NCBI RefSeq assembly: GCF_000190735.1
Contig: NC_015177.1
Span: 4,278,001-4,342,000, forward strand
Source of the DNA: Pseudopedobacter saltans DSM 12145
GTDB taxonomy: Bacteria; Bacteroidota; Bacteroidia; Sphingobacteriales; Sphingobacteriaceae
Length of the DNA: 64,000 bases
Direction of reading: 5' to 3'
Of this stretch, positions 38,359-60,413 are shown piece by piece. The position numbers were made by a program, and so were the translations under genes. Below the pieces are notes generated by a model. It saw only the letters and a program-made list of their open reading frames with translations. It was not told the DNA's origin and did not search any database. Within the stretch, counting starts at the first letter, position 1, and every line of letters begins with the position of its first letter.

Positions 38359-41300
38359 ATGTTTAATTCATTACTTAAGCAAAGTAGATGGATGTTTTTT
38401 CTAATAGGATTAGTTCTAGCTCTCACCAGTGCTGCTAGAGCAGAAAGTCAAGCAGAGAAACCCAATTCTACAAGATTCTTCCAAGAAGGGAAAAAGGAGA
38501 TTAGAGGAACAGTTTCCGATACTATCGGGCCCATGCCGGGAGTAGCGGTTTCTGTGAAGAATAATCCCAAAATTGGAACCACAACAGATCTTAATGGTAA
38601 ATATGTTCTAGAGGTTCCGGATGGTTCTGTAATTGTCTTTTCTATGGTAGGTTATACTTCTAAAGAGGTCTCCACCAAAGGAAAGAGCGTGATCAATATG
38701 ACCATGGAAGAGTCATCGCAAATGTTGGATGAAGCCGTAGTAGTTGCATTTGGAACTCAGAAGAAAGAATCTGTGATAGGGTCGATTACTACTATTAATC
38801 CGGCCGAACTTAAAGTTCCCTCCAGTAACCTTACAACTGCATTAGCAGGACGACTTTCCGGAGTGATAGCATATCAAAGATCTGGAGAACCAGGGATGGA
38901 CAATGCAGAATTCTTTATTCGTGGAGCTACGACGTTTGGTTACAAAAAGGATCCTTTGATTTTAATTGATGGAATGGAGTATCAAGTTAAAGATATGGCT
39001 CAATTGACTTTAGATGATATTGAGAGCTTTTCCATTTTAAAAGACGCATCTGCAAATGCTCTATATGGAGCTAGAGGTGCTAATGGTGTTATTTTGATAA
39101 CTACTAAACAAGGTAAAGAAGGTAAGCCAAAAGTAAATGTTCGTTATGAGAATTCTATTTCATCAGCTACAAGGAATATCGAACTGGCTGACCCAATTAC
39201 TTATATGAAGTTGCATAACGAGTCCTATATTACACGGAAGCCTAATGAAGCAACACCTTATTCAAGAAGTAAAGTAGATAATACTATTGCAGGGGTAAAT
39301 CCTACAGTTTTCCCAGCGGTTGACTGGCAAGAAGAATTATTGAAGAATTCTACAATGAACCAGCGTTTGAATCTAAACCTAAGTGGTGGTGGTAAGGTTG
39401 CTTCATATTATGTGTCAGGGGCTATCAATCAGGATAATGGTATTTTAAAAGTAGATAGCCGTAATAATTTTAATAATAATATTGATTTGAAGAAATACAA
39501 TCTGCGTTCTAATATCGGATTGAATCTTACAAAAACAAGCTCCTTTAATATTCGTTTGAATGGAAATTTTGAAGACTATAATGGGCCATTAGACGGAGGT
39601 GAAGGTATTTATCGCAAGATTATGCGTTCTAGTCCTGTACAGTTTCTTCCGTATTATCCTTATGAACCTGGAGTTGGTGGAACCGAGAAGCATATTATGT
39701 TTGGTAATCTAGAATCAGGAAATTACTTGAATCCTTACGCTGATATGGTGAAAGGTTATAAAGAATCAGCTAGGGCATTAATGGTTGCGCAGTTAGAGTG
39801 GAAGCAGGATTTGCCTTTTGTGACTCAGGGACTGAATTTTAACATGATGGGGAATGTCAATCGTGAGTCTTTCTTTGATTTGAGAAGATCTTACAAGCCA
39901 TTCTTTTATACCGCTGGAAGTTATGATAAACTTACGAATTCCTATCGATTAAATCCTTTAAATCCAGATACCGGGACCGATTATCTTGATTTTAATGAAG
40001 GAGATAAAACTGTTTCCTCAGTATTGTATATGCAGTCGGTGCTGAACTATAACCGCACTTTCGAAAAGAAGCATACTGTAGGTGGAACGCTTGTTTCCTT
40101 GTTGAGTTCTAAGCTTGATGGTAATGCCGGAGGCTTACAGGAGTCCTTGGCTGCCCGAAATCTAGGAGTATCAGGAAGAGCAACCTATGGTTATGATAAT
40201 CGATATTTTGCAGAGTTTAATTTCGGATATAATGGTTCTGAAAGATTTTATAAAACAGAGCGTTGGGGTTTCTTTCCTTCAGCAGGTTTAGCGTGGCAAA
40301 TTTCAAACGAAAAGTTTTTTGAGCCTTACAGAGCAACTGTTTCTAAACTTAAAGTTAGAGGTAATTATGGTTTGGTTGGAAACGATGCCATTGGCGATAA
40401 AGATGAAAGATTTTTTTATCTGTCTGAAGTAAACATGAGTAATGGAGGTATGGGAGCTAGTTTTGGTTCTAGGGGTGGATATTCAAGACCAGGTATTTCT
40501 ATTAGTCGTTATGCAAATCCTAATGTTACTTGGGAAACTGCCAAGAACTCAACATTTGGTTTAGAGCTGGGTTTATGGAGCAAACTCGATATTATTGCAG
40601 AGTATTTTACTGAACATAGATCAAATATTCTTATGGACAGAGCTTCAATCCCTAAAACAATGGGTTTACAGGGGAATTTGCCAAAAGCAAATGTTGGCGA
40701 AGCTAAATCTAAATCTTATGAGCTGCAATTAGATTACAACAACGCAGTTAGTAAGAATTTATACATAGGAGTTAGAGGAAATTTTACTTATGCTCGTAAT
40801 AAATATCAAGCCTACGAAGAGCAAGTAAAAGATTATCCATGGGAGTATAAAGTGGGGCATTCTACTTCTCAAACATGGGGATATATAGCTGAGCGTTTAT
40901 TTGTTGACGATGAAGAGGTTAGGAACTCTCCAATTCAGAATTTTTCAAATACGATGGGGGGAGATATCAAATACAAAGATATAAATGGCGATGGTATTAT
41001 CAATGATTTTGATAAGGTGCCACTTGGATATCCTACCCGTCCGGAAATTATCTATGGATTTGGTTTTTCAATCAGCTATAAAGGTTTTGATGCCAATGCA
41101 TTCTTTCAGGGGTCTGCCCGTTCGTCCTTTTGGATAGATGCGAGTGCTACAGCACCATTTGTGGAATACAGGAAAAATAGTAGTGAATTAGCGGGTTATA
41201 AACTTCAAAATCAATTGTTAAAAGCTTATGCAGATAATCACTGGTCTGAACAAAACAGAGATTTATACGCTTTATGGCCACGTTTAAGTCCTACGCTTTC

Positions 41301-41562
41301 CGAAAATGCAAATAATCTACAAACCAGTACTTGGTTTATGCGTAATGGGTCTTTTCTAAGAATAAAGCAAATTGAATTAGGTTATACTTTTCCACAAAAA
41401 TTATCCCAGCGAGCTAAGTTAAGCAATCTCAGATTGTATGCGACAGGAAGCAATATATTTACCTTTAGCAAATTTAAGCTTTGGGATATTGAGATGGGAG
41501 GAAATGGCTTGGGATATCCTGTACAAAGAGTAATTAATTTTGGTTTACAGGTAGGAATATAA
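38359..41562 (+). CDS. SusC/RagA-family TonB-linked outer membrane transporter (PUL2)
   Basis: 1067 residues. Outer membrane glycan importer of the second locus. Seen: signal region, CarboxypepD_reg-like domain (about 45-125; IRGTVSDTIGPMPGVAVSV), SusC box LDEAVVVAFGTQKKESVIGS, plug with FIRGATTFG and LILIDGMEY, and a beta-barrel ending INFGLQVGI. No STN domain. Its sequence differs widely from the PUL1 paralogue despite equal length. It is 11 bp from its SusD. The adjacent lyases indicate an acidic oligosaccharide substrate. Confidence 0.96.
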   Translation: MFNSLLKQSRWMFFLIGLVLALTSAARAESQAEKPNSTRFFQEGKKEIRGTVSDTIGPMPGVAVSVKNNPKIGTTTDLNGKYVLEVPDGSVIVFSMVGYTSKEVSTKGKSVINMTMEESSQMLDEAVVVAFGTQKKESVIGSITTINPAELKVPSSNLTTALAGRLSGVIAYQRSGEPGMDNAEFFIRGATTFGYKKDPLILIDGMEYQVKDMAQLTLDDIESFSILKDASANALYGARGANGVILITTKQGKEGKPKVNVRYENSISSATRNIELADPITYMKLHNESYITRKPNEATPYSRSKVDNTIAGVNPTVFPAVDWQEELLKNSTMNQRLNLNLSGGGKVASYYVSGAINQDNGILKVDSRNNFNNNIDLKKYNLRSNIGLNLTKTSSFNIRLNGNFEDYNGPLDGGEGIYRKIMRSSPVQFLPYYPYEPGVGGTEKHIMFGNLESGNYLNPYADMVKGYKESARALMVAQLEWKQDLPFVTQGLNFNMMGNVNRESFFDLRRSYKPFFYTAGSYDKLTNSYRLNPLNPDTGTDYLDFNEGDKTVSSVLYMQSVLNYNRTFEKKHTVGGTLVSLLSSKLDGNAGGLQESLAARNLGVSGRATYGYDNRYFAEFNFGYNGSERFYKTERWGFFPSAGLAWQISNEKFFEPYRATVSKLKVRGNYGLVGNDAIGDKDERFFYLSEVNMSNGGMGASFGSRGGYSRPGISISRYANPNVTWETAKNSTFGLELGLWSKLDIIAEYFTEHRSNILMDRASIPKTMGLQGNLPKANVGEAKSKSYELQLDYNNAVSKNLYIGVRGNFTYARNKYQAYEEQVKDYPWEYKVGHSTSQTWGYIAERLFVDDEEVRNSPIQNFSNTMGGDIKYKDINGDGIINDFDKVPLGYPTRPEIIYGFGFSISYKGFDANAFFQGSARSSFWIDASATAPFVEYRKNSSELAGYKLQNQLLKAYADNHWSEQNRDLYALWPRLSPTLSENANNLQTSTWFMRNGSFLRIKQIELGYTFPQKLSQRAKLSNLRLYATGSNIFTFSKFKLWDIEMGGNGLGYPVQRVINFGLQVGI

Positions 41563-41573
41563 ACGAGATTATA

Positions 41574-43502
41574 ATGAAAAAGATTAAATTATTAATATTA
41601 ATAGCAGTTACAGGTTTACTTGGCTCTTGTAATAAGTTTTTGGATGTAGTTCCCGACAATATTGCTACAATTGAATATGCTTTTAATTTACGAGCATCTG
41701 CAGAAAAATTCCTTTTTACTTGCTATTCTTATATGCCGGCTAATGGGCATTTTAACACTAATCCCGGTTTCACAGCCGCTGATGAAATATGGTATGCTAA
41801 TCCACCTATGGATGTAAGCACAAACTTTTACAATATAGCTTTAGGACTACAAAATGTTTCCAGTCCTTATGGGAATTTTTGGAGCGGTTCTCGCGGCGGT
41901 AAACCTCTTTTTCAGGGAATCCGCGATTGCAACATCTTCATTGAAAATATCGATAAAGTAACGGAAATGGATGGATGGGAAAAAGGTCGATGGAAAGCGG
42001 AAGCGAAATTTTTAAAAGCATATTACCATTTTTATTTAATGCGTATGTATGGACCTATCCCTATTATTAAAGAAAATTTGCCAATTTCTGCTTCTCCAGA
42101 AGAAGTGAAGGTTTATAGGGAACCAGTTGATGATGTGGTAGCGTATATCGTTCAATTATTGGACGAAGTGTATGAGGATCCTAATTTGCCAGAGACACTT
42201 GGCGGGGCGGAACAATCGGAATTAGGTAGAATAACTAAACCTATAGTTTTAGCATTGAAAGCAAAGGTATTAGTTACCGCCGCAAGCCCATTGTTTAACG
42301 GTAATCCGGAATACGCTGGCTTAAAAGATAAAAGGGGAGTAAATTTATTTAATCCTGTTTATGATCAAAAAAAATGGGAAGTAGCAGCAGAAGCTTGTAA
42401 AACAGCTATTGATTATTGTCATTCATTTGGGTATGCACTTAATGAAACTAAAGGATTGGCAACCTATGTGATCAACGATACTATTGGAACACAATTGAAA
42501 TTGCGTACCGCATTTACCAGCGAAGGAAATACTGAAGTTATTTGGGCAAATACCAACAGTATGGCAGATGTGAATATGCAGCGCTGGTCTATGGGAATTA
42601 TAAAAACAGGAGCAACAAGTGGCAGCGGGCCAAAAGGTTTACTTGCTCCTACTTTAAAAATGGCAGAGACATTTTACACAAGAAATGGTTTGCCAATTAC
42701 AGAAGATAAAAGCTGGGATTATGACGATCGTTATGGATTGAGGGTGTCAAAGGAGGCAGATCGTTACTATGTTGAATTGGATTCCAATACGGTTAAATTA
42801 CATTTCGACAGAGAACCTCGCTTTTATGCCAGTTTGGGTTTTGATCGTGGAATTTGGTTTGGAAATTGGGTAGATAATTACAATGTAACTAAGCCTTTAG
42901 GTTTTATAAGAGGAAGAAGCTCTGAAATTTCTGCAAGACAGGGTATAAGTAATTATTCGATTACAGGTTACTGGATTAAAAAGTTAGTTAATTTAGAAAC
43001 AGCAGTTGCTGCAGATGGGAATATCACCAACAATATTGTGAAGTATCCATGGCCTGAGATACGTTTATCTGATTTATATCTTTTATGTGCCGAAGCCTTG
43101 AATGAAGTCAATGGATATACGTCGGAAACGGTAGGGTATCTTAACGCGGTAAGGGTAAGAGCAGGTATTCCAACGGTAGAAGATTCTTGGGATGGACCCT
43201 TTTCTAAACAAATTGGATACTATAGATCAAAAGAAAACCTGAGAAAAATTATCCACCAAGAGAGAAGTGTAGAATTGGCATTTGAAGGACAACGTTTCTG
43301 GGATTTAAAAAGATGGAAAGAAGCACATAGAGAGCTAAATCAGCCTATACGAGGTTGGGATATTACTCAAAAAAGTGCAAATTCCTATTATAGGCCAGTA
43401 TTATTGTTTAATCAGCATTTTACCATGAAAGAGTATTTGTGGCCGATTGAGACAAAAGAAATGCAGACAAATAGAAATTTGGTTCAAAATGTTGGATGGT
43501 AA
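41574..43502 (+). CDS. SusD/RagB-family surface lipoprotein (PUL2)
   Basis: 642 residues, long for the family. Lipobox LLGSC. Seen: NKFLDVVPDNIATIE at the mature N-terminus, FQGIRDCNIFIENI, WKAEAKFLKAYYHFYLMRMYG helices, and the C-terminal signature HQERSVELAFEGQRFWDLKRWK. The extra length is spread over insertions in the 230-400 and 420-500 regions, which carry glycan-binding loops in other SusD proteins. It works as the lid of the PUL2 SusC. Confidence 0.95.
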   Translation: MKKIKLLILIAVTGLLGSCNKFLDVVPDNIATIEYAFNLRASAEKFLFTCYSYMPANGHFNTNPGFTAADEIWYANPPMDVSTNFYNIALGLQNVSSPYGNFWSGSRGGKPLFQGIRDCNIFIENIDKVTEMDGWEKGRWKAEAKFLKAYYHFYLMRMYGPIPIIKENLPISASPEEVKVYREPVDDVVAYIVQLLDEVYEDPNLPETLGGAEQSELGRITKPIVLALKAKVLVTAASPLFNGNPEYAGLKDKRGVNLFNPVYDQKKWEVAAEACKTAIDYCHSFGYALNETKGLATYVINDTIGTQLKLRTAFTSEGNTEVIWANTNSMADVNMQRWSMGIIKTGATSGSGPKGLLAPTLKMAETFYTRNGLPITEDKSWDYDDRYGLRVSKEADRYYVELDSNTVKLHFDREPRFYASLGFDRGIWFGNWVDNYNVTKPLGFIRGRSSEISARQGISNYSITGYWIKKLVNLETAVAADGNITNNIVKYPWPEIRLSDLYLLCAEALNEVNGYTSETVGYLNAVRVRAGIPTVEDSWDGPFSKQIGYYRSKENLRKIIHQERSVELAFEGQRFWDLKRWKEAHRELNQPIRGWDITQKSANSYYRPVLLFNQHFTMKEYLWPIETKEMQTNRNLVQNVGW

Positions 43503-43524: not shown

Positions 43525-44772
43525 ATGAAAAGAAATATAATTATACTTTTGGTTCTTTTTACAGGTTTGTTATCCCTGCAATCCTGTAAAGAGGAGTTCA
43601 TGAAGCCTATTTATGGCAAAACAGGTGCTCCTGCCTCTATTAAGAATGCCATTGTGGAAAATGTTCCAGGTGGGGCAGTTATAAGTTATACTTTACCTGA
43701 TGATGTCAACTTGTTGTACGTCAAGGCGGTGTATGAGCGTAAAGGGAAAATGGTTGAATCAAAATCATCATTTTATAAAAGAGATGTTGTAGTTGAAGGT
43801 TTGGGCGATACAAATCCAAGGGAAGTGAAGCTATATGCTGTAAGCAGGTCAGAAGAAGCTTCAGAACCGGTATCCGTTACCATTAATCCTTTAGCTCCAC
43901 CAATTTACGATGTATTGGAATCTTTGGATATTAAGGAGTCTTTCGGGGGGATGAATATTAAATTTGAAAACAAAACGTCTACAGGCGAAAGGCCATATAA
44001 TATAATAATAGGCATTGTTGCTTGGGACGAAACTTTGAGTGAATGGAAAGATGTAGATGCCCATTACACTGCTTTACCAGAAGGAGGATTTTCTGTAAGA
44101 GGGCTTGAGGCAGTGGAAAGAAAGTTTGGTTTTTTTGTTAAGGACACCTGGGATAATATCACAGATACGCTTGCTATGAACCTTACGCCAGTATATGAAG
44201 AGCAATTGGGTGCACCAACATATATGAGACAAAAATTCCCAGTACCTCAGATAAGACCACTTCCTGTAGACGGATCGCCGGTAGCGGAACCTGGAAATCT
44301 TAGCTCATGGCCTTTTACAGCTTTATTTGACAATACAATAGGGAATAATGGTTTCCATTCTAATGAAAAGAATCCTCTTCCTGCATGGTTCGCTATGGAT
44401 TTTGGTCAAAAAGTACGTTTAAGTCGTTATAAGCTTTGGCAAAGGATGCATGACGATAACTCAACTTACTTTTATAGTCATGGAAATCCACACGAATGGG
44501 AGATTTGGGCAACTAACACGCCTTCTGATGTGAATAGCTGGGTGATGATAGATCACCGAATTATGCAAAAGCCGTCAGGTCTTCCTATAGGGCAAGTTAC
44601 CAATGATGATGTGGAAATTGCGAGAGCTGGACACGAGTATGAACTACCTCTTGAAACAGAAGCATACAGATATATCGCATGGAAACATATTGATAACTGG
44701 GCATCTATTAACGGAGCGCTAGGTTTCCTACATATGTCAGAATTGAGATTTTGGGGCCAGAAAGTTAAATAA
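43525..44772 (+). CDS. DUF5000/DUF5126-type surface glycan-binding lipoprotein (PUL2)
   Basis: 415 residues in the SusE position. The ATG at 43525 (MKRNIIILLVLFTGLLSLQSC) gives a lipobox LQSC; an upstream start would extend into the SusD gene. Domain order: fibronectin-like region (about 35-130; VISYTLPDDVNLLYVKAVYE), a second beta domain (about 135-225) and a C-terminal discoidin-like DUF5000 domain (about 260-415; WFAMDFGQKVRLSRYKLWQR... HEWEIWATN). Such proteins are thought to hold polysaccharide at the surface. There is no catalytic motif. Confidence 0.82.
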   Translation: MKRNIIILLVLFTGLLSLQSCKEEFMKPIYGKTGAPASIKNAIVENVPGGAVISYTLPDDVNLLYVKAVYERKGKMVESKSSFYKRDVVVEGLGDTNPREVKLYAVSRSEEASEPVSVTINPLAPPIYDVLESLDIKESFGGMNIKFENKTSTGERPYNIIIGIVAWDETLSEWKDVDAHYTALPEGGFSVRGLEAVERKFGFFVKDTWDNITDTLAMNLTPVYEEQLGAPTYMRQKFPVPQIRPLPVDGSPVAEPGNLSSWPFTALFDNTIGNNGFHSNEKNPLPAWFAMDFGQKVRLSRYKLWQRMHDDNSTYFYSHGNPHEWEIWATNTPSDVNSWVMIDHRIMQKPSGLPIGQVTNDDVEIARAGHEYELPLETEAYRYIAWKHIDNWASINGALGFLHMSELRFWGQKVK

Positions 44773-44795: not shown

Positions 44796-46040
44796 ATGAA
44801 TATAAAAAATTATTTAAAAAATCTCATCGCATTAATGGTGGTTGGAGTCCTCTTCGGATCTTGCCAAAAAATGGATGGAATTTATGAGGATTTTCTAGAA
44901 GGAGGCGAAATCGTTTATAATGGAAAAGCCGAAGGATTGGTCGCACATCCTGGGATTAATCGTATGGAGCTGAAATGGTATATTATCTCAGATCCAAAAA
45001 TAGTGAAAGCCAAGGTGTTTTGGATAAATCCAGTTCACATAGAAGGCGAACCAACCCTGCCAAATCAACGTGCCGCGGGTAAGGATTCTGTTACAATAGA
45101 TATTGTACGTGGCGCTACAACTGACTCAGTTATTACTCTTATAGATAGATTGAAAGAAGGTGTCTACACTTTTTCAGTAGTTATGTACGATAAAAATGGG
45201 CATTCATCTATATCTTCCCAAATTATTGCAGAAGTTTACGGTTCTGTTTTTCAGGGAACAATAAGTAACAGACCCTTAGATGTACCTCTCTTAGATACTA
45301 TTAACAAGAAAAGTAATCTTTATATCCCTTGGTATGGTATATCTCAGCAAGCGGTTAAAATCGATCTTCAATATATTGATGTATCGGGTATAGCGAGAAC
45401 TAAAAGGATAACAAAGGTTAGTAATCCTATTGATCCGAGAAGGCCAATGATTTGGCAGGATAGAGATACAGTTTTTAATTATAAAGAAGGTACAGGTTTT
45501 AGTTATAGAACAGCATATTTGCCAGAACCAAATGCTATTGACACGTTTTACACGGAATATACGTCAATTTCAAAAAGTGCAATAGGATACTATAAATTGC
45601 CTCCACCACCGCCATTGGAGGAGAATCTTGCTCTAGGTAGGCCAGTAACTGTTAGCAGTTCCAGCGGTTCTGCTATTACAGATGGAGATCGGAAAGGAGA
45701 TCCTTCACCTAAATGGCAACCTAGTAGTAGCGAAAGGGCTGACTTAAATGTTTGGTTTTATGTGGATCTAGGTTCTGCTAAAACTTTCAATACGGCAGGT
45801 CTATATATCCCTAAAGCAGCGGGTAACATTCCTTTCTTTGAAATAATGGTTACATCAGAAAGTAGTATAACATCAAGTACAAAATGGACAAGGGTTTATA
45901 GTCAGTTTACGAAACCTAATGCTGAGAATGAAATTACTTTCAATTCTACAACTGCGAGGTTTGTAAAAGTTAGTTTGAATTTGGATAAAGAAAGCACCAA
46001 TATCAACGTTTCCGAGTTTGAGTTATATAACAGACCATAA
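44796..46040 (+). CDS. DUF4998 and F5/8 type C (discoidin) surface lipoprotein (PUL2)
   Basis: 414 residues with lipobox LFGSC. N-terminal DUF4998-like part (about 22-190; KMDGIYEDFLEGGEIVYNGK), a proline-rich linker PPPPPLEE near 270, and a C-terminal discoidin domain (about 278-414; NLALGRPVTVSSSSG ... WFYVDLGSAKTFNTAGLYI), a fold that often binds sugars. It is 23 bp from the previous gene and probably acts with it as second surface glycan-binding protein in place of SusF. Confidence 0.82.
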   Translation: MNIKNYLKNLIALMVVGVLFGSCQKMDGIYEDFLEGGEIVYNGKAEGLVAHPGINRMELKWYIISDPKIVKAKVFWINPVHIEGEPTLPNQRAAGKDSVTIDIVRGATTDSVITLIDRLKEGVYTFSVVMYDKNGHSSISSQIIAEVYGSVFQGTISNRPLDVPLLDTINKKSNLYIPWYGISQQAVKIDLQYIDVSGIARTKRITKVSNPIDPRRPMIWQDRDTVFNYKEGTGFSYRTAYLPEPNAIDTFYTEYTSISKSAIGYYKLPPPPPLEENLALGRPVTVSSSSGSAITDGDRKGDPSPKWQPSSSERADLNVWFYVDLGSAKTFNTAGLYIPKAAGNIPFFEIMVTSESSITSSTKWTRVYSQFTKPNAENEITFNSTTARFVKVSLNLDKESTNINVSEFELYNRP

Positions 46041-51549: not shown

Positions 51550-51687
51550 CGGCTGTCTAAAAAGCCAAACATCATCGTCATTGCGAGGTAACGAAGCAAT
51601 CTAATGATGTCAAAAACGCAGATTGCTTCGTCATACTTCCTCGCAATGACGTGTTTTTTAGTATTCGATAACCTTTTTGGACAGCCT
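51550..51687. mobile_element. MITE-like element inside repeat unit 3
   Basis: About 137 bp with imperfect terminal inverted repeats (ggctgtctaaaaag at the left, complement of ctttttggacagcc at the right) and a large internal palindrome: cgtcattgcgagg... at 51576-51602 against 51620-51651. No coding sequence. It replaces the 11 bp agtctccgact found in the other units. The CGTCATTGCGAGG ... GAAGCAATCT core is a motif seen in short repeats of many bacteria. Confidence 0.82.
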
Positions 51688-51813
51688 CGTTATCAGTTTA
51701 AAACTACTGTACCCAATGTGGTTAAGCAATATGAATAAGACAAAGGAGTTTTAAACTCCTGTTTATTTGAAAATCCGTAGAGACGCTATGCTTAACTCTA
51801 CGGACAGCTATGG

Positions 51814-51885
51814 GGATAAAGACGGAAGACCGTAGTCCGAAGTCGATGAGAAGTAAGGTAATTGTCTAAGGGTACGTACTGGTGC
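51814..51885 (+). repeat. 72-bp segment duplicated from 50907-50978 (copy 2)
   Basis: Identical to copy 1, including codons for DKDGRP and the stop, but out of any gene. It sits where units 1 and 2 have the ggagatgattgtctaaaaga spacer. Confidence 0.9.
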
Positions 51886-52218
51886 CAGAAAGTCCTATCC
51901 TGTCCGTAGTCTTGTGTGAAAGGAAAGAGGAGGCTACGGATTGTTAAATAGCAAAGGGTCTCCGACTCGTTATCAGCTTAAAACTACTGTACCCAATGTG
52001 GTTAAGAAATATGAATAAGACAAAGGAGTTTCAAACTCCTGTTTATTTGAAAATCCGTAGAGACGCTATGCTTAACTCTACGGACAGCTATGGTTTTTTC
52101 CCTGTTGAGGAATATATTTAGTTTGTGCTGGAAAGAGAAAAATGCTTATAAAGCATAATGAATTGCAAAAATAACTAAGTCTTTTATGAATAAAAATCAC
52201 CTCCTTGCATAAAGTAAG

Positions 52219-53667
52219 ATGTTTAATTTATTTGATATAGGAGTGAAAAGAGTTTTAAGTTTTTTTGTATTGATAATCTTTGGTTTGCATTCTTTTGGAC
52301 AAACGGACAAAAGTAAAGGCGATCGCATGCACTGGTGGCGGGAAGCAAGGTTCGGGATGTTTATTCATTGGGGTGTTTATGCTGTCCCTGCTGGAAACTA
52401 TAATGGACATCAGATAAAAGGGATTGGTGAATGGATTATGAATTTTGCTAAAATTCCGGTAAAGGATTATAAAGAATATGCAAAAGGTTTTAATCCGGTA
52501 AAATATGATGCAGATGCTTGGGTGAAGTTGGCAAAGGATGCTGGGATGAAATATATCATCATCACAGCAAAACATCATGACGGATTTGCTTTGTTTGACT
52601 CAAAAGTAACCGACTGGGATATTGTTGATGCTACGCCATACAAAAAAGATTTGATCGCGCCGTTAGCAGAGGCTTGCAGGAAATATGGCGTAAAATTAGG
52701 ATTATATTATTCCCAAAATCAGGATTGGGTTCACCCTGGTGGAGCGGCTTATTGGAGAGCTGCTAATCGAGGTTACGATAAAATGCCTAATGCTGCAAAA
52801 ATGGATGAGTTTACCAAAGCTAATGATGGACACTGGGATTCTCTTCAACTGAGTAAAACTTTCAATGAGTATGTTGACGGGATAGCGATACCTCAAATCA
52901 AAGAGATACTAACTAAATACGGAGATATTGCTGTTTTATGGTGGGATACACCCAGAGGGATGGATGCCGTTACAGCTGGAAAAATGAACGATTTGTTAAA
53001 GCTTCAGCCTAATATCATTACAAATAATAGGTTGATGGAGGGAGCATTTCAGGGAGATACCAAGACTCCTGAACAGAGGATCCCTACATTGAAAGAACTG
53101 GATGGAACAGATTGGGAAACCTGTATGACCATGAATGATACCTGGGGATACAAAAGCTTCGATCAGAATTGGAAATCGACAGAAACTTTAATTAGAAATC
53201 TGGTTGACATAGCTTCTAAAGGCGGAAATTACTTGTTGAATATTGGTCCTAAGGCAGACGGTGAGATTCCGTTAGAAAGTATAAATCGCTTAAAAGAAAT
53301 TGGAGATTGGATGAAGATTAATAGTCAGGCGATTTATGCTACTCATGCGGGACCCTTTCAATCTCTTTCATGGGGTAGGTCCACTATGAAAAATACAGAT
53401 AATCAAACCATACTTTACCTTACAGTTTTCGATTGGCCGTCAAATGGAGAGTTGACTATCCCAACTATTAAAAATAAAATTAAGTCGGTCGAATTGTTAG
53501 GCGCATCGAAGACCAAATTGGAAATCAATCAATCAACTATAAAAAATTTACCACAACAACCGATAAATAAGATCGCTACTGTAATAAAACTTACAATAGA
53601 GGGCAAAATAGCAGTAAATAATTTCACTGCGACCGAAGAGATGAATGTTGGCGAAATGGCTAAATAA
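52219..53667 (+). CDS. GH29 alpha-L-fucosidase (PUL2)
   Basis: 482 residues with a signal peptide (ending about HSFGQ). Seen: WWREARFGMFIHWGVYAVPAG, AKHHDGFALFDS, KYGVKLGLYYSQ and DIAVLWWDTP with the nucleophile Asp243. The KGGNYLLNIGPKADGEIP segment is typical of GH29. A C-terminal beta domain (about 380-482) is present. It removes terminal alpha-L-fucose, here probably from an acidic oligosaccharide. It differs strongly from the PUL1 GH29 and begins a tight gene run of six that reaches 60,413. Confidence 0.92.
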   Translation: MFNLFDIGVKRVLSFFVLIIFGLHSFGQTDKSKGDRMHWWREARFGMFIHWGVYAVPAGNYNGHQIKGIGEWIMNFAKIPVKDYKEYAKGFNPVKYDADAWVKLAKDAGMKYIIITAKHHDGFALFDSKVTDWDIVDATPYKKDLIAPLAEACRKYGVKLGLYYSQNQDWVHPGGAAYWRAANRGYDKMPNAAKMDEFTKANDGHWDSLQLSKTFNEYVDGIAIPQIKEILTKYGDIAVLWWDTPRGMDAVTAGKMNDLLKLQPNIITNNRLMEGAFQGDTKTPEQRIPTLKELDGTDWETCMTMNDTWGYKSFDQNWKSTETLIRNLVDIASKGGNYLLNIGPKADGEIPLESINRLKEIGDWMKINSQAIYATHAGPFQSLSWGRSTMKNTDNQTILYLTVFDWPSNGELTIPTIKNKIKSVELLGASKTKLEINQSTIKNLPQQPINKIATVIKLTIEGKIAVNNFTATEEMNVGEMAK

Positions 53668-53680: not shown

Positions 53681-55252
53681 ATGAACATTAAGAAAAGCAG
53701 TGTACTTACACTTGGAATTATTTTGGCAAATTTATTTGCTTTTGCAGGAAACTATAATATTAAAGATTTCGGAGCAGTTGGCGATGGAATAACACTTAAT
53801 ACGCTATTTATACAAAAGGCCATCGATAAATGTAACAATGATGGTGGCGGTAAGGTTATATTTCCTGCAGGGAGATTTCTTTCAGGTACGGTAGAGTTAA
53901 AAGATAATGTAACGCTGCATTTCGAAAAAAATGCGGAGCTTGTAGGTAGTACAGACTTAAAAGATTATAGAAATCTGGACCCTTTCACCGAAGGTTTAGG
54001 TATTGATGTGGGATGGGCATTGCTTGTTGCAGTGGATGCAAAAAATATTGGTCTTGAAGGTGAAGGTGTTATCGATGGACAAGGTACTGCGCTAAAAGAA
54101 AAACATATTCTGACAGACACAAGGCCAGAAGGCAAGCGTTGGGGCTTAAGACCATTCTTATTACGTATTGTTCGTTGTACTAATGTTAATGTGAAGGATG
54201 TTACATTAAAATATGCAGGAGCTTGGACCTCTCATTATTTTCAAAGTAGAAAAATCAATATTGAAAATGTGACCATTAGAAGTATAGGCGTTGCACATAA
54301 TGATGGGATTGGTATTGACGGTTGTCAAGAAGTACGTATAAAAGGTTGCGATGTGGTTAGTGGAGATGATGCCTTAGTTTTTAAAACGACTTCCAGTAAA
54401 ATGGGCTGTAAGGATATTGTTGTTTCTGATATGAAGCTAAAAAGTAACCAGGGAGCTATCAAATTTGGAACAGAATCTATGGCTCCATTTGAGAATATTA
54501 AAATTTCAAATTGTTATATCTATGATACTAAAAATGGCGGTATAAAATTACTGACTGTAGATGGTGCTCATATCAGGAATGTAGAAATTTCGGATATTGT
54601 TATGAAAAATGTAAAAACGCCGATGCTATTTAGACTGGGATCTAGATTGAGCGTTTTTAGAAAAGGACAAGATACGCAACAGACTACAGGAACTTTTGAG
54701 AATGTAGTAATTAAAAATGTTAAAGCTGATGCTGCAGCAGATGCACAATTGACACCGGCTTCCGGTATCTTAATTACTGGTGTACCCGGACATTATATTA
54801 CCAATTTAACATTGGAGAATATCGAGATTAATTTAGACGGTAAAGGAACAAAAGAAAATGCAAGACATGAGGTTCCGGAAGCCATTAATCAATATCCAGA
54901 GGTTAAAACTTTTGGTCCAACTATCCCAGCCTATGGCGTATGGGCTAGACACGCAAGAGGATTGGTGTTGAAAAATATCAAATTTAATTTAGCAAATAAT
55001 GATGTTAGACCAGCGCTAATTTGTGATGACTGTGAGAATGTTATTGCAACAGATTGGTCTCTGACAAAAACTGAAGGTTCAGAATCTGTAGTAAGATTGA
55101 ATGATGTGAAAGGTGCTAACATCAGTAATTTTAAAGTAAACGGAGCTACCGCCGAAGCTTTTATCAGAACAGAAGGAAATACCGCAAATGTTGTTTCTAA
55201 AAACAATCAGATTAAAGGAATAAAAAAAGAATTAGTTAAGGCCACGAAATAG
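53681..55252 (+). CDS. GH28-family (polygalacturonase-like) enzyme (PUL2)
   Basis: 523 residues with a signal peptide (to about FAFAG). Right-handed beta-helix starting NIKDFGAVGDGITLNTLFIQ. Acidic motifs HNDGIGIDG (Asp208, Asp213) and SGDDALVFKT (Asp229, Asp230) stand at the places of NTDG and DD in polygalacturonase, but the catalytic-His motif GHG is replaced by NQGAIKFGTES and RIK by GGIKL. This is a separate GH28 branch common in Bacteroidetes PULs, and its substrate may be another uronide than homogalacturonan. The ATG at 53681 begins the signal peptide, 13 bp after the GH29 stop. Confidence 0.82.
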   Translation: MNIKKSSVLTLGIILANLFAFAGNYNIKDFGAVGDGITLNTLFIQKAIDKCNNDGGGKVIFPAGRFLSGTVELKDNVTLHFEKNAELVGSTDLKDYRNLDPFTEGLGIDVGWALLVAVDAKNIGLEGEGVIDGQGTALKEKHILTDTRPEGKRWGLRPFLLRIVRCTNVNVKDVTLKYAGAWTSHYFQSRKINIENVTIRSIGVAHNDGIGIDGCQEVRIKGCDVVSGDDALVFKTTSSKMGCKDIVVSDMKLKSNQGAIKFGTESMAPFENIKISNCYIYDTKNGGIKLLTVDGAHIRNVEISDIVMKNVKTPMLFRLGSRLSVFRKGQDTQQTTGTFENVVIKNVKADAAADAQLTPASGILITGVPGHYITNLTLENIEINLDGKGTKENARHEVPEAINQYPEVKTFGPTIPAYGVWARHARGLVLKNIKFNLANNDVRPALICDDCENVIATDWSLTKTEGSESVVRLNDVKGANISNFKVNGATAEAFIRTEGNTANVVSKNNQIKGIKKELVKATK

Positions 55253-55260: not shown

Positions 55261-56790
55261 ATGCGATTTATATCAACAATATTAATGCAATTGGTTTTTG
55301 CCGGAATCATTCAGGCACAAACTGTAGTTCCACTTTGGTCTGATTATGTTAAGGATAAAAAGGAGGGAAAAGTTCCGTTCTTGCCTGATTTTTCATTCGC
55401 TGGGTATCATTTTTCTGAAAAAGCTATTCCCGATGTTAGCAAGCGTAAATATTTCAATGTGGTTGATTTTGGTGCAAAACCAAATGACGATATCTCTGAT
55501 GAAGTAGGTATTCAAAAAGCTATTAATGCTGCTGAGGAAAATCCAGGTGGTGGAGTTGTGTTTTTTCCAAAGGGAAAATTCATTATTAATGGAGACACTT
55601 TAAAGAGATATCAAATCAGAGTTACAAAGAGTAATATTGTGTTGAAAGGAAGTGGCGCAGGTATTGGTGGAACTGAAATACATCAGCCAAAGATGTGGGT
55701 AAATAACCGCTCTATCCTCTTTAAATCAGAAACAAATAGATCTGATAAATTAGCAACCATTACGAAGGATGCTCCGAGAGAAACTTTTGTTGTTGAAGTC
55801 GATAATGCGAGTAAGCTAAAACCTGGTCAAGATGTTATCGTTCGTCATAGAAGCGAGGAATATACCAGGAAATACTTTGCTCCTCAGGATTTGAAACCAC
55901 AATGGACGAGACTGTTTGGGCCTAATGGCGGAATGCAGATCATAGAAATACATACTATAAAAAACGTTAACGGAAATAAAGTGACTTTTCATAATCCGTT
56001 GCACTTAGATATTACTTTAGTAAAATCAGCTCCTTTTGAATTATATAATTATTCTGCGTTAGAAGAATGCGGTGTGGAAGATATTTTGTTTTCATCAGAT
56101 TGGAAATCTTATCCGGAAGAGTTCGTTCATCATAAAAATGCTATTCATGACAATGCTTATTTAGCGATTGGAATGGAAAATGTGAAAAATAGTTGGGTGA
56201 GAAACTGTGAATTTAGGGACTGGAATGATTGCTTGTTTTTTAGAGCGGGATATGCTGTTACTGTAGAGAATGTAAAATTTACAGGTAAAAAGGGCCATAC
56301 TTCGCTTCATGCAAGATCTGGTAATGGTGTTTTAGTTAAGAAATGCAGTTTCAATGGAGCACAACATCATGGGCCTGGAACGGGATATGGTGCTGCCGGA
56401 ACTGTTGTTACGCAATGTCAAATGGACAGGGATCAGCATTTCGATAGTCACGGAGGGCAGCCTTATGCTACTTTGCTTGATGACATTGATGGGGGAATAT
56501 TTACCAACCTGGGTGGTCCAGAAGCGGGACATCCTCACCATGGACAGTTTATGGTTTTCTGGAACTTCATACACAAATCATCTAAGGATTTTCATTACAA
56601 TTTTTGGGATATGCAAAGAAGAAGGAACTATACTATGGCCCATCCAATTTTGGTAGGTTTCCAGGCAGATACAAAAGTGACCTTTGAAAATGAGGGAATG
56701 AATGTTTTGTTTAACAAGGTGGTAAAACCACAATCTTTATTTGAAGCACAATTGGCTTTGAGACTAACAGGCAAGGATATAGCTAAATAA
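55261..56790 (+). CDS. Pectate-lyase-3 / DUF4955-like beta-helix protein (PUL2)
   Basis: 509 residues with a signal peptide (MRFISTILMQLVFAGIIQAQ). Residues about 65-110 form the start of a Pectate_lyase_3 helix (YFNVVDFGAKPNDDISDEVGIQKAI), followed by rungs with WVRNCEFRDWNDC and HARSGNGVLVKKCSF. The C-terminal 150 residues contain HFDSHGGQPYATLLDD and HPHHGQFMVFWNF and resemble DUF4955. Clusters of His and Asp in that part may be catalytic or metal-binding. No known activity; a lyase or hydrolase on the PUL2 glycan is the natural guess. 8 bp after the GH28 gene. Confidence 0.72.
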   Translation: MRFISTILMQLVFAGIIQAQTVVPLWSDYVKDKKEGKVPFLPDFSFAGYHFSEKAIPDVSKRKYFNVVDFGAKPNDDISDEVGIQKAINAAEENPGGGVVFFPKGKFIINGDTLKRYQIRVTKSNIVLKGSGAGIGGTEIHQPKMWVNNRSILFKSETNRSDKLATITKDAPRETFVVEVDNASKLKPGQDVIVRHRSEEYTRKYFAPQDLKPQWTRLFGPNGGMQIIEIHTIKNVNGNKVTFHNPLHLDITLVKSAPFELYNYSALEECGVEDILFSSDWKSYPEEFVHHKNAIHDNAYLAIGMENVKNSWVRNCEFRDWNDCLFFRAGYAVTVENVKFTGKKGHTSLHARSGNGVLVKKCSFNGAQHHGPGTGYGAAGTVVTQCQMDRDQHFDSHGGQPYATLLDDIDGGIFTNLGGPEAGHPHHGQFMVFWNFIHKSSKDFHYNFWDMQRRRNYTMAHPILVGFQADTKVTFENEGMNVLFNKVVKPQSLFEAQLALRLTGKDIAK

Positions 56791-56798: not shown

Positions 56799-58229
56799 AT
56801 GATGAAAACAGGAAAATTATTAGCTATACTCTTTTTTTTAACAAGTGGTGTTGTTGCTAAAAATATTCAAGTAAAAAATGCTTCAGAACTGAATAAGGCC
56901 ATTGGTTCTGCGGTTGCGGGTGATGCGATTTTAATGCAACCGGGTGAGTGGAAGGATGTAAAAATACTATTCAATTCCAAAGCAAGTAAAGCCAAGCCAA
57001 TTACGCTGAAAGCTGATCAAGCCGGCAAGGTTATGTTGTCCGGAGAATCTTCTTTAAGTTTCGATGCTCCATATTTAGTGGTGGAAGGCTTACTTTTTAA
57101 AGATGGAAGTTTAAAAAAAGGCAGCGTAATTCAGTTTAATTCTGATTACTGCAAATTGGAAAATACAGCTATTGTAGATTTTAATCCCTCACAAAAATCA
57201 ACGGGTTACTATTGGGTATTGTTTAGAGGAAATAACAATTTAATGCAGTATTGCTCTTTTAAAGGCAAGAATAATATGCAACCTTTAGTAGGCAATGATC
57301 AGGATAATTCCAGATATAATACAGTTCAATACTGTTATTTTAAAGATATCCCATATACACCAGATAATGGCAGAGAGATATTCAGAATATGGGGATATGG
57401 CAGAAGTGAAGAGACTGGTGATGATGGGGCATTTTTTACAATCAAAAATAATCTTTTCGAGAGGGCTCATGGTGAGGGGATGGAAATTATTTCATTAAAA
57501 TCTAACCGTAACAAAGTTATAGGCAATACCGTGATTTCTACAAAAGGTGGAATTGTTGGCAGAAGCGGAAATTTCAACACTATTGAAGAAAATTTCATTT
57601 TTGGGGAAAACGAGAAAGGAAGTTATGGTATCCGATTGGCGGGACAGGGCCACCACGTAGTAAATAATTATGTGCGAGATGTTGATGGCGACGGTTTGAT
57701 TTTGATTTGTGGTGAATATATCGAAAAAGCGCTAACTGATAAATATGAGCCTATATTAAGAGCGGGGACCCCTTTGGGAAGAGTTCCAAGATACGGACAT
57801 GTAAAGGATGGGCTTTATGTGAATAATACATTTTTAAATGTAGGCGGTGCAGGAATTAATATTGGCGGAAGTTACAATGGTAATCCAGGTGCGGACCAAA
57901 GGATGCTTTTGCCGGAGAACAATACAATTACCCATAACATTATTTCCACCAAAAGCGGTAAAAATGCAATTCAAGCTACATCGCCCTCTCAGAATCCAAT
58001 TTTGGCAAACTTTAAATTTAAATCTAATATACTGGGCTCTAATTTGGTGTACGATAACGGCGCAGAGCCTGACAGTGGTGTGAAGGAAACCCCAATAACA
58101 ATAAATGGGAAGGAGTATAAAATACCATTTGCAAGTAAAAAGGATACATTAATTACTTCAAAACCAGGTGTTAGAATTAAGAACAAGCCATTATCATCGA
58201 AAGAAGTAGGTGTTAAGTGGTCAATCTAA
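56799..58229 (+). CDS. PL6-family polysaccharide lyase with altered active-site His (PUL2)
   Basis: 476 residues, Sec signal ending at about VVAKN. A compact PL6 parallel beta-helix without the extra N-terminal domain of the first PL6. Catalytic Lys234 in IISLKSNRN and Arg255 in GGIVGRSGN keep the 21-residue spacing of PL6, but the His that normally follows the Arg is Ser256. The enzyme may therefore have a different uronate preference or reduced activity. 8 bp after the DUF4955-like gene. By family it should cut alginate- or dermatan-like linkages; substrate not established. Confidence 0.83.
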   Translation: MMKTGKLLAILFFLTSGVVAKNIQVKNASELNKAIGSAVAGDAILMQPGEWKDVKILFNSKASKAKPITLKADQAGKVMLSGESSLSFDAPYLVVEGLLFKDGSLKKGSVIQFNSDYCKLENTAIVDFNPSQKSTGYYWVLFRGNNNLMQYCSFKGKNNMQPLVGNDQDNSRYNTVQYCYFKDIPYTPDNGREIFRIWGYGRSEETGDDGAFFTIKNNLFERAHGEGMEIISLKSNRNKVIGNTVISTKGGIVGRSGNFNTIEENFIFGENEKGSYGIRLAGQGHHVVNNYVRDVDGDGLILICGEYIEKALTDKYEPILRAGTPLGRVPRYGHVKDGLYVNNTFLNVGGAGINIGGSYNGNPGADQRMLLPENNTITHNIISTKSGKNAIQATSPSQNPILANFKFKSNILGSNLVYDNGAEPDSGVKETPITINGKEYKIPFASKKDTLITSKPGVRIKNKPLSSKEVGVKWSI

Positions 58230-58257
58230 TAAAAATAGTATAGAAGTGATAATTACA

Positions 58258-58725
58258 ATGATGAAGAAACTTATTCTTTTTTTTCTACCGTTTATCCTCT
58301 TGATATCTTGTAAAAAAGATTCGGAATTGTATAAATACAATAAAGATTTGGTGGGGATCTGGAGTTTAACGTCTAACAAAATTGTTTATTATTCTGCCAG
58401 CGGACAAAAGCTGCATGAAGAGGAGCTGGCGGGGGAGGGGACATTTTCTTCTGTGCAATTTAAAAGTGACGTAACCGCTTATTTGAATGTTAAAGAGGGT
58501 GAGGGGTATAATTCGGCTTATGATATTGTGACCTTAGAAAATAAGAAATATATGGAGTTTTACAGTTTTGCAATTTTTAATAGCCAGTATTTTGAGATTC
58601 AATCAAAAAATGCAACTAACATGGTTTGGAAAATGAAGTTTTCGCAAGTTGAATATGATGATGAATCGGGAGGAACTTCGATTGCAGATTATGCTATCCT
58701 TACTCTCAATCTAATGAAAAATTAA
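58258..58725 (+). CDS. Small lipoprotein of unknown function (PUL2)
   Basis: 155 residues. The start at 58258 (MMKKLILFFLPFILLISC) gives a clear lipobox LISC; ATG at 58261 is equally possible, while a GTG at 58210 would overlap the PL6 gene. The mature part resembles small lipocalin-like proteins: YNKDLVGIWSLTSNKIVYY, GEGTFSSVQFKSDVTAYLN, MVWKMKF. It is beta-rich and about the length of a lipocalin-like domain. It may bind a ligand at the surface; function unknown. It lies between the second PL6 and the Tat-type GH28-like gene. Confidence 0.65.
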   Translation: MMKKLILFFLPFILLISCKKDSELYKYNKDLVGIWSLTSNKIVYYSASGQKLHEEELAGEGTFSSVQFKSDVTAYLNVKEGEGYNSAYDIVTLENKKYMEFYSFAIFNSQYFEIQSKNATNMVWKMKFSQVEYDDESGGTSIADYAILTLNLMKN

Positions 58726-58736
58726 AACTTGAAAGA

Positions 58737-60413
58737 ATGAAACCAGTTAACCAAAATCAAAACGAAACCTTAACAAGGAGAAAATGGTTAGGAAAGCTAT
58801 CTGTACCAGCTGCTGCTGTATTAGGTGTGCCACTTTTAGGAAATGAGGTTTTTGCTGCAAGAAAAGAAGAGCAGCCTTTGAGTTCTTTGGGGCAAAAAAT
58901 TTTTAATGTAAAAGATTTTGGTGCGAAAGGCGACAGTACAACTTTAGATACTGTGGCGGTACAAACGGCAATAGATAAGTGTGCTGAAGCCAAAGAGGGG
59001 ATAGTCTTAATTCCGGAGGGAACATTTATCATTGGAACAATACGTCTGAAAGATTACGTTACACTGCATTTGTCTGCTGGAGGGGTTCTCAAAGGAAGTC
59101 CGAAGCGGGAAGATTATACAGCGGGAGAGGGCATTCCAACCGGGAATGGAAATATTGTGATGCTTTATGCTAGCAATGCCAGGAACGTTTCTATAACCGG
59201 CACCGGGACAATAGATGGAAATGGAGAGGCGTTTTTTACAGGTAAGGGAGATAACACCGGACCAAATTCTACCGGAGGTGGGTATTTTGACAGGCCCCAT
59301 CTCTTGATATTTTATAAATGTAACCAGTTGAGACTTGAGGATACCTTTTATACAAAAAGTGCTTATCACTGTTTTAGAATATTACAATGTGAACAGGTAG
59401 ATATAAATGGTGTGGTTATATATAATCGCGTTAACCGGAATAACGACGGTTTTCATTTTAACAGCTGTAAATATGTTCACGTTACCAATTGTGATGTGAG
59501 ATGTCAGGATGATGCCTGTGCCTTATTTGGGAGCAATCAATTCGTGACAATCAGTAATTCTTCATTCAGTACACGCTGGTCTATTTTTAGATTTGGGAGT
59601 GGAGATCCGCAGAACATTACCATTTCCAATTGTATTATTTACGACACTTATGGCTGTGCTATTAAAATCAGTTCGGGAAATGTAAGGCTGGAGAATTTCA
59701 TATTTAGTAATATCGTGATGCGGAATGTGACAGGCCCAATTGGTATAGGCTTTGGTGGTTCCACGAATGCGCAGGATAAAGTATATATGAAGAACCTGAT
59801 TTTTAGTTCGATTACTGCACAGGTTGTTAATAAGCCGCAAGAGCATCCAGATATTAAATTTTCTCTGAATATATTTCCGGGCGAGCACTACAGTTGCATT
59901 ACCTTAAATGCACTAAAGGGACATTATATAGAGAATGTTACTTTTAGCGATATACATGTACAATATCAGGGAGGAGGTTCTAAAGAACTGGCTCAGAAAC
60001 AAAATATTCCTCAGAAATCCAGAGAGTATTTTACCGTTTGGGAAGAAGAACCTTTCGGTCCGCCTGCATATGGTTTTTATGCCAGAAATGTCAAAAATTT
60101 GAGATTGAATAACATCCGATTGGAATACGATGAGCCTGATGCAAGGTCTGCAATGATTCTGGAAAATGTACAGGAAGCACAAATGGGAAATATTGCCTTG
60201 AAGGGCGGCATGGAAGCGGAAGCTACCATTCAACTTAAAGGTTGTAGTGATATTATTTTTACAAGTCCAATGTTGTTGTCCTCTTCTCAGGCTTTTTTAA
60301 AGTTGGAAGAATCGAAAAATATAGTTGTAGATGGTGGGTTAATCCAAAAAGCAAAAAAGAAAGTAGTTTTTGGTAAAAACAGCAGCATTAAAGATATTCT
60401 ATTACGAGTTTAG
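58737..60413 (+). CDS. GH28-like enzyme with Tat-type signal (PUL2)
   Basis: 558 residues. The N-terminus NETLTRRKWLGKLSVPAAAV has the twin-Arg pattern of a Tat signal followed by a hydrophobic stretch to about NEVFA. The beta-helix begins at FNVKDFGAKGDSTTLDTVAVQ. Acidic motifs NNDGFHFN and RCQDDACALFG are where GH28 has NTDG and DD; a STRWSIFRFGSGD segment takes the place of GHG. Probably acts on a uronic acid linkage after folding in the cytoplasm, perhaps with a cofactor. It is the last gene of the locus and a terminator follows. Confidence 0.78.
   Translation: MKPVNQNQNETLTRRKWLGKLSVPAAAVLGVPLLGNEVFAARKEEQPLSSLGQKIFNVKDFGAKGDSTTLDTVAVQTAIDKCAEAKEGIVLIPEGTFIIGTIRLKDYVTLHLSAGGVLKGSPKREDYTAGEGIPTGNGNIVMLYASNARNVSITGTGTIDGNGEAFFTGKGDNTGPNSTGGGYFDRPHLLIFYKCNQLRLEDTFYTKSAYHCFRILQCEQVDINGVVIYNRVNRNNDGFHFNSCKYVHVTNCDVRCQDDACALFGSNQFVTISNSSFSTRWSIFRFGSGDPQNITISNCIIYDTYGCAIKISSGNVRLENFIFSNIVMRNVTGPIGIGFGGSTNAQDKVYMKNLIFSSITAQVVNKPQEHPDIKFSLNIFPGEHYSCITLNALKGHYIENVTFSDIHVQYQGGGSKELAQKQNIPQKSREYFTVWEEEPFGPPAYGFYARNVKNLRLNNIRLEYDEPDARSAMILENVQEAQMGNIALKGGMEAEATIQLKGCSDIIFTSPMLLSSSQAFLKLEESKNIVVDGGLIQKAKKKVVFGKNSSIKDILLRV

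Follow-up and report, generated by a model that had tools for sequence, protein, structure and literature searches.

Two adjacent polysaccharide utilization loci of Pseudopedobacter saltans and a possible dispersed system for a fucosylated uronan

The window analysed here is a stretch of 64,000 nucleotides from the soil bacterium Pseudopedobacter (Pedobacter) saltans DSM 12145, positions 4,278,001–4,342,000 of a single contig of 4.635 Mb (NC_015177.1). It carries a run of 12 genes, all on the + strand and headed by SusC/SusD (38359–60413), which displays the tandem SusC/SusD pair and co-directional carbohydrate-active enzyme (CAZyme) genes that define a polysaccharide utilization locus (PUL); we refer to it as PUL2. 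A second run, PUL1 (26949–37250; SusC, SusD, GH29, GH27 and GH31), adjoins it. Domain calls were made by Pfam and NCBIfam profile scans of the window proteins, and they confirmed the genes listed in the original prediction for this DNA (SusC/SusD, two binding proteins, two PL6, three GH28-like proteins, a GH29 and a DUF4955 protein), with GH28-like a being marginal. As had also been predicted, the scans gave no match to sulfatase, GH88/GH105, PL1 or PL9 within 38359–60413; in the same span the further pectin-PUL markers PL11, CE8 and GH78 and an alginate oligomer exolyase (PL15/PL17) gave none either, and sulfatases and GH88 are in addition the markers of glycosaminoglycan PULs. Two features that the prediction had omitted are a gap at 50929–52218 and a 155-aa lipoprotein (58258–58725), the latter giving no Pfam, NCBIfam or PHROGs match. 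The arrangement of PUL2 is more than chance, because orthologous blocks recur in other genomes. We give about even chances to the possibility that PUL1 and PUL2 are two parts of one dispersed system acting on a fucosylated, alpha-galactosylated, glucuronan-like uronan heteropolymer.

Both PL6 proteins belong to their family, with 224.7 bits (PL6a) and 201.1 bits (PL6b) against a Chondroitinas_B cut-off of 24. In an alignment of 25 rows (24 distinct) they keep the Asn, Glu, Lys and Arg positions which we take to be the PL6 Ca ligands and the catalytic Lys/Arg. PL6a finds its best PDB match in the alginate lyase 7o84 (E 4.6e-51) and has an ortholog of 61–64% identity in one relative (G011). PL6b shows zero differences from PDB 7o79 over 455 residues, and the published pedsa3628 cloning primers match its mature ends exactly (PMC4954714). 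The protein was purified by others and is reported as a strict endo poly-MG alginate lyase releasing delta-M and delta-MGM (PMC4954714). The same source describes Pedsa3807 of P. saltans as a dermatan sulfate lyase. In a PL6 tree, for which the names Pedsa0631, 0632 and 3807 were assigned by locus order, by primers matched by eye and by the best chondroitinase-B score, PL6b and Pedsa3807 sit on long branches and the grouping of PL6b with PL6a is unreliable; therefore no substrate was read from the tree.

The DUF4955 protein, previously left as an unplaced helix protein, turns out to be a homolog of BT3328 (PL29). It matches the NCBIfam model NF058554 (BT3328 hyaluronan lyases, PL29) with an E of 6.7e-72 across positions 309–829 of 840, while its 242.9 bits fall short of the curated cut-off of 1100 for PL29 membership; judged by its sequence, it is a homolog of the BT3328 family and not a certified member. 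Its AlphaFold model (pLDDT 93.2; 30 rows) is a right-handed beta-helix. In VIA-align comparisons the solved folds nearest to it belong to a phage protein, an alginate epimerase/lyase and a Klebsiella K1 capsule lyase at Z 26–27 (the latter, 7w1d, at Z 26.3 over 340 residues), with polygalacturonase folds at Z of about 20–23.5. The fold alone cannot choose between lyase, epimerase and hydrolase, because many beta-helix families lie within a few Z units in the Foldseek and VIA comparisons. A profile of the PL29-like family has its best stretch in an N-terminal motif for 20 of the 21 PDB matches listed, and a K1-capsule-specific depolymerase, 9k4a, matches profile positions 151–380 with an E of 1.9e-7. 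A lyase role is favoured, with a C5-epimerase as the less likely alternative.

GH28b (71.2 bits) and GH28c (90.6 bits) are members of GH28 by the Glyco_hydro_28 cut-off of 22.9. GH28-like a does not reach that cut-off and its membership is weak: it matches PF12708 alone in Pfam (27.3 bits, cut-off 27) and shows BT4146-type NCBIfam similarity (E 1.8e-47) far under the model cut-off. A pattern search found the candidate Asp motifs kept in all three. Relatives of GH28-like a occur near PL29-like genes at 57% (L041) and 54% (L047) identity and at 59% in L058 of G011, while a GH28c ortholog above 50% was seen in G011 only, among the mapped loci. The N terminus of GH28c looks, by eye, like a Tat-like twin-arginine sequence. 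The repeat array in the gap interrupts the PUL2 run and includes a stretch that duplicates the 3' end of GH28-like a, the gene before it; a period of 250 with 2.3 copies was found at 50982–51549, and the repeat has 24 matches genome-wide, 5 of them in the gap. A hidden GH88 or sulfatase pseudogene was considered at 50929–52218 and rejected, as six-frame translation returned the repeated unit with stops only.

Table 1. Features of PUL1 and PUL2 (positions in the window).
Feature	Coordinates	Strand	Evidence
PUL1 SusC (TonB-dependent outer-membrane transporter)	26949..30152	+	PF07715 E 8.2e-20, PF13715
PUL1 SusD	30164..31630	+	PF07980 E 6.4e-31
PUL1 GH29 alpha-L-fucosidase	31768..33273	+	PF01120 E 3.2e-61
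PUL1 GH27 (alpha-galactosidase family)	33285..34835	+	PF16499 E 5.6e-41
PUL1 GH31, PsGal31A (Pedsa_3617), alpha-galactosidase	35049..37250	+	PDB 4xpo match
PUL2 SusC	38359..41562	+	PF07715, PF13715; orthologs 76% (G003, Parapedobacter soli), 67% (G011)
PUL2 SusD	41574..43502	+	PF07980 E 7.9e-59; orthologs 79% (G003), 61% (G011)
DUF4959-DUF5126-DUF5000 surface glycan-binding lipoprotein	43525..44772	+	domain scan; lipobox by eye
DUF4998 and F5/8 type C (discoidin-like) surface glycan-binding lipoprotein	44796..46040	+	domain scan; lipobox by eye
PL6a, probable lipoprotein, predicted polysaccharide lyase	46131..47885	+	PF14592 E 2.9e-66
GH28-like a, 972 aa	48010..50928	+	PF12708 marginal; BT4146-type NCBIfam similarity
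Repeat array without long open reading frame, 1,290 bp	50929..52218	.	imperfect tandem units of ~250–280 bp of a dispersed repeat
GH29 alpha-L-fucosidase	52219..53667	+	PF01120 E 5.4e-89; best PDB 9s0x, alpha-L-fucosidase
GH28b	53681..55252	+	PF00295 E 1.1e-19; ortholog 71% in G011
DUF4955/PL29 (BT3328)-like right-handed beta-helix, predicted lyase	55261..56790	+	PF16315 E 3.2e-35
PL6b, Pedsa3628, strict endo poly-MG alginate lyase	56799..58229	+	PDB 7o79 identity; primer match
155-aa lipoprotein, family unassigned	58258..58725	+	between PL6b and GH28c
GH28c	58737..60413	+	PF00295 E 1.4e-25; best PDB exo-polygalacturonosidase 3jur E 4.8e-21; ortholog 61% in G011

The GH31 of PUL1, the only gene of its type in the P. 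saltans genome, has 4xpo as its top PDB match over residues 35–733 with 1633.6 bits, a score per residue close to that expected of a self-match. The original paper on that enzyme, PsGal31A, is said to remark on fucosidase genes nearby. PsGal31A (Pedsa_3617) was characterised in vitro by others as an alpha-galactosidase and has been seen with fucose at the +1 position (PMC9491548). The earlier view that nothing comparable had been characterised thus needs correcting, as PL6b has been purified and crystallised and the neighbouring PUL1 holds a crystallised alpha-galactosidase. Relatives of three other PUL1 genes were found in Desertivirga arenae (G031), where a SusC of 66% stands beside GH95 and GH2 and adjoins GH31 and where the SusD relative is split over two stretches (72% over 293 aa in L203, beside GH31; 59% over 194 aa in L059), and in G011, where a GH27 of 64% lies beside GH29-GH28b-PL29. 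Upstream of PUL1, a protein with a formylglycine-generating-enzyme-like (FGE-sulfatase) domain is encoded at 24650–25747, with no sulfatase among the scanned neighbours.

The recurrence of these genes was followed in 301 family genomes (genomes are coded G and loci L); neighbours were labelled from their BLAST matches to a small set of references chosen by us, so that counts cover the families in that set. A DUF4955/PL29-like relative at E 1e-20 is present in 30 of the 301 genomes and a close ortholog (57–100%) in 18, P. saltans included; we mapped 20 kb around 17 of these 18, all but the window's own. PL6, a PF05426 (PL38-like) lyase, GH88 and a PsGal31A-type GH31 recur near the orthologs, and a GH29 relative of 54–60% lies near the PL29-like gene in 11 of the 17 loci. 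The PL38-like gene matches PF05426 with an E of 1.8e-91 and has 3nfv and 8bdq-type entries as its nearest PDB structures; we take PF05426 to cover PL5 as well, and those entries to be PL38. The fullest case is G011, in which one stretch reads SusC, an unlabelled 678-aa protein, GH95, GH31 (76%), PL38-like, GH29, GH88, PL6 (34%), mutarotase-like, GH3, the PUL2-type SusC2 (67%), SusD2 (61%), DUF4959 and DUF4998, then PL6a (61%, other strand), GH27 (64%), GH29, GH28b (71%), PL29 (74%), U335 and GH28c (61%), with the GH28-like a relative about 20 kb beyond. In P. soli, SusC2 (76%) and SusD2 (78–79%) are flanked by GH31-PL38-like-GH88 and, on the other side, by PL29-GH28a-GH95-GH29, while D. arenae joins the PUL1-type SusC/SusD and GH31 (77%) to PL38-like-GH29-GH88-PL6-GH29, with PL29 and GH28a about 23 kb off. 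In a named collection, among the best 80 of 539 matched loci, 24 reach at least 55% identity, and within up to 10 kb on each side 10 of these 24 listed loci have both GH31 and PL38-like genes and 14 have GH29. PUL2 had been regarded as a complete system of its own; its pieces, and the GH31 of PUL1, adjoin PL38-like, GH88, GH95, GH29 and PL6 genes in a number of the relatives.

The association with GH31 was also counted from the GH31 side. PsGal31A-type GH31 (E 1e-150) is present in 52 of the 301 genomes and in 17 of the 18 with a PL29-like ortholog (Fisher p 1.4e-13, relatedness ignored). The 53 GH31 loci mapped, our own left out, comprise 19, of which 12 were chosen for a linked PL29 and 7 were among the closest GH31 matches without one, and 34 that were fetched regardless of PL29. 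Within 10 kb of the 53 we found GH88 in 37, GH95 in 36, GH29 in 31, PL6 in 23, PL38-like in 22, GH2 in 17, DUF4955-like in 12, PL29 in 8, GH28 (b-type, 50–67%) in 8 and sulfatase in 1; the counts are lower in the 34 PL29-independent loci (GH88 19, GH95 19, GH29 14, PL6 10, PL38-like 7, GH28 7). By comparison, each family was counted 0 or 1 times in 20 control SusD loci, drawn from strong SusD2 matches and scored across the whole 20 kb; the sole control GH31 comes from a locus that overlaps a GH31 locus (L266), and the GH88 and GH2 singles (25–36%, L264) and the GH29 single (26%, L258) are weak. The GH31 linkage is therefore real, and the PL29-like member is restricted to a subset of the relatives. 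Finding a GH28b-type gene close to GH31 in 8 of the 53 loci slightly strengthens the tie between PUL2 and PUL1. SusD2 itself was dropped as a substrate marker and only its closest matches were used, since SusD2-type homologs (E 1e-40) occur in 181 of the 301 genomes.

While several relatives hold much of the gene set in one run of ~20–40 kb together with PL38-like and GH88 genes, in P. saltans it is spread over at least four chromosomal sites. A GH2-PL38-like-GH88 group lies at 1.054–1.059 Mb (65–68% identity to the relatives' genes); a GH88 (71%) lies at ~0.615 Mb with UxaA and SDR (67%) at ~0.608–0.610 Mb; and two GH95 genes lie at ~0.538–0.546 Mb along with genes for a ricin-type lectin and a BNR_4 protein (71% and 70%). 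As there are 17 PF07470 (GH88) matches in the genome, the pairing of its GH88 genes with those of the relatives is one of identity and not of tree. PUL2 is thus not self-contained, its apparent PL38-like, GH88, GH2, GH95 and UxaA/SDR partners lying at three unlinked sites. This dispersal explains the absence of GH88 from PUL2 better than an unusual target does, and the use made of that absence as a clue to the substrate is not supported, given GH88 within 10 kb in 37 of 53 GH31 loci and its closest relatives at two unlinked P. saltans sites. Two other regions have similar content. At 1.750–1.770 Mb (L194), an additional SusC/SusD pair accompanies a PL38-like gene at 1.759 Mb (59% to that of the relatives) and could serve the same or a related substrate. 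Another PL6-rich PUL at 0.878–0.918 Mb (L191/L192) has SusC/SusD and three PL6 and, by eye, an epimerase, DapA-like and NagA/NagB-like genes and two LacI-type regulators, and may target a uronate-amino sugar polymer.

From this we infer a joint action of the scattered genes, an order of attack, cell compartments and a substrate. The polymer would be captured by SusC/SusD and the two surface lipoproteins, and its uronan backbone cleaved by beta-elimination through PL6 and the PL29-like beta-helix at the surface, helped by the PL38-like lyase from another site in the genome; GH29/GH95 would take off alpha-L-fucose and GH31/GH27 alpha-galactose, the latter from fucose to judge by the PsGal31A complex; GH88 would free the unsaturated uronate; and fucose-type catabolic genes would use the fucose. 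A uronan is suggested by PL6, PL29-like, PL38-like and GH88, and alpha-galactose on fucose by the PsGal31A complex with fucose at +1. GH88 would in turn imply that the unsaturated uronate stays bound to another sugar, as in a heteropolymer. The target probably includes fucose, because of GH29 here, GH29/GH95 by orthologs and fucose-type catabolic genes in some relatives, such as the MFS, altronate-dehydratase-like, SDR, FAH-like and mutarotase-like genes (the last three by eye) that stand in a row in Pedobacter nanyangensis (L042/L090). This agrees with the acidic, fucosylated target originally proposed, and the K1-capsule-specific depolymerase among the PL29-like profile matches was likewise counted for a uronan/fucose target.

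Walls of Mucoromycota contain chitosan and fucose-containing polyuronides. The natural substrate that we favour, tentatively and as yet unproven, is a fucose-rich glucuronan of Mucoromycota wall or exopolysaccharide. The compositions reported match the predicted target: Fuc:Man:Gal:GlcA (fucose, mannose, galactose, glucuronic acid) of 5:1:1:6 in the glycuronan of Mucorales (Mucor), and mainly beta-1,4-GlcA (32–55%) with Fuc 9–25%, Gal 4–13% and Man 8–30% in a Mucorales exopolysaccharide (PMC6433966), and Fuc 20%, GlcA 3–23% and Gal 12% in Rhizopus oryzae walls (PMC11437000). No description of bacterial recycling of Mucoromycota uronides was found in the literature searched. Were the proposal correct in full, this would be the first recognised Bacteroidota system for the fucosylated glucuronan (mucoran/glycuronan) of Mucoromycota, with GH95-GH31-PL38-GH29-GH88-PL6-PL29 as a conserved gene set shared by Sphingobacteriaceae and Chitinophagaceae from soil. 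Its PL29-like and PL6 proteins would then have a new specificity, either both as lyases or with a C5-epimerase paired to a lyase; this whole is a shade more doubtful than the substrate taken by itself.

Several points weigh against a Mucoromycota glucuronan. The 34 PL29-independent GH31 loci include only 7 with a PL38-like gene and none with PL29 within 10 kb, and the PL38 label given to the relatives' genes from their sequences is tentative, PF05426 covering PL5 as well. In four same-genus relatives (L052–L055) the PL29-like ortholog (58–61%) lies by SusC/SusD, a sulfatase and a GH43, which suggests a different, sulfated polymer as its target there. The best PL6b relatives in the mapped loci reach 31–37%, too low for a close ortholog, GH28c is not accounted for by a glucuronan, and no mannosidase for the mannose of mucoran turned up among the relatives' scanned proteins, for which no dedicated search was made. 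Pedsa3628 has been shown to be active on poly-MG alginate, and characterised PL6 enzymes are reported to need L-guluronate at +1 (alginate) or to act on iduronate-containing dermatan (PMC4954714); the available text of the sources on mucoran composition names no L-uronate, in tension with PL6 chemistry. PL38 includes alginate and hyaluronan enzymes too (PMC13027841). Finally, solid-state nuclear magnetic resonance left GlcA undetected in the Mucorales studied, and neither fucose nor GlcA was identified in a second study of Mucorales.

Among other targets, a bacterial polymer of glucuronic acid and fucose, capsular or exopolysaccharide, in place of a fungal wall is unlikely but has the K1 matches on its side: the K1 capsule repeat is GlcA-Fuc-Glc (Glc, glucose), the PL29-like profile reaches 9k4a, and 7w1d is among the closest folds. 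However, phage protein, alginate epimerase and polygalacturonase folds score nearly equal (Z 20–27), and PsGal31A suggests an alpha-galactose on fucose that we take to be absent from K1. We are somewhat more sceptical of a fucosylated pectic polymer (rhamnogalacturonan I or II, RG-I/RG-II, or xylogalacturonan) with GH28 as the main depolymerases. The three GH28-like proteins are related to BT4146-type rhamnogalacturonidases, far below the model cut-off, GH29 would suit such a polymer, and the GH28b-type gene does lie by GH31 in eight loci; yet no GH28 was matched within 10 kb in 45 of the 53 GH31 loci, GH28c relatives above 50% were seen only in G011 among the mapped loci, and PL1, PL9, PL11, GH78, GH105 and CE8 go unmatched in PUL2. 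That PUL2 is an accessory alginate locus is improbable. The strict endo poly-MG alginate lyase activity of PL6b speaks for it, as do the alginate lyases that are the best solved relatives of PL6a, but GH29, GH27, GH31 and GH28 are not known to have a role in alginate use, and the 24 listed loci at ≥55% identity bear mostly terrestrial genus names (judged by name). Alginate is also unlikely as the main target because the genome has other genes for it, namely an alginate-type locus with its own SusC/SusD at 0.77 Mb (Pedsa0631/0632, printed primers matched by eye) and the PL17 poly-M exolyase Pedsa1196 (PMC5966431). Least probable of all is a glycosaminoglycan, for although PL6 (dermatan, as with Pedsa3807), PL29 (BT3328, to whose model NF058554 the DUF4955 protein is homologous) and PL38 (RiPL38; one PL38 acts on hyaluronan, PMC13027841) all include glycosaminoglycan lyases, the one sulfatase reference used found no match within 10 kb for 52 of the 53 GH31 loci, hexosaminidase is unmatched in the PUL1/PUL2 scans, and fucosidases and alpha-galactosidases are atypical as glycosaminoglycan enzymes.

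A dispersed system for a fucosylated, galactosylated uronan-type polymer, if real, would join two separately solved enzymes in one system with a testable substrate, and account for the presence of a strict poly-MG lyase ~20 kb from a fucose-binding alpha-galactosidase. With such a system scattered in one species but kept together in its relatives, gene absence within a locus can mislead substrate prediction. Altogether, these data describe a multi-site carbohydrate system of known families, two members of which have been characterised singly, the whole being apparently undescribed; in line with the original prediction, the literature searched yielded no description of a PUL with these genes. 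PsGal31A (PDB 4xpo), by score and species the same protein as that encoded at 35049–37250, is known as a single enzyme, and Pedsa3628 (PL6_1, PDB 7o79), the same protein as that at 56799–58229, only as an enzyme acting on alginate; the available text of PMC4954714 does not discuss the PUL around it. BT3328, the PL29 hyaluronan/chondroitin lyase of B. thetaiotaomicron, is homologous to the DUF4955 protein over the C-terminal two thirds of the model; unlike it, the DUF4955 protein has no N-terminal part, and PUL2 is without the sulfatases and GH88 of a glycosaminoglycan PUL. Alginate loci of Bacteroidota share PL6 and SusCD with the genes studied here, among which fucosidases and alpha-galactosidases stand instead of a PL17 exolyase. 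The PL38 glucuronan lyases CUL-I (Brevundimonas) and TpPL38A (Trichoderma parareesei) are reported to act on beta-1,4-glucuronan and are described there as single enzymes (PMC13027841), whereas here the PL38-like gene is found with fucosidases in the relatives' SusCD loci and at unlinked sites in P. saltans.

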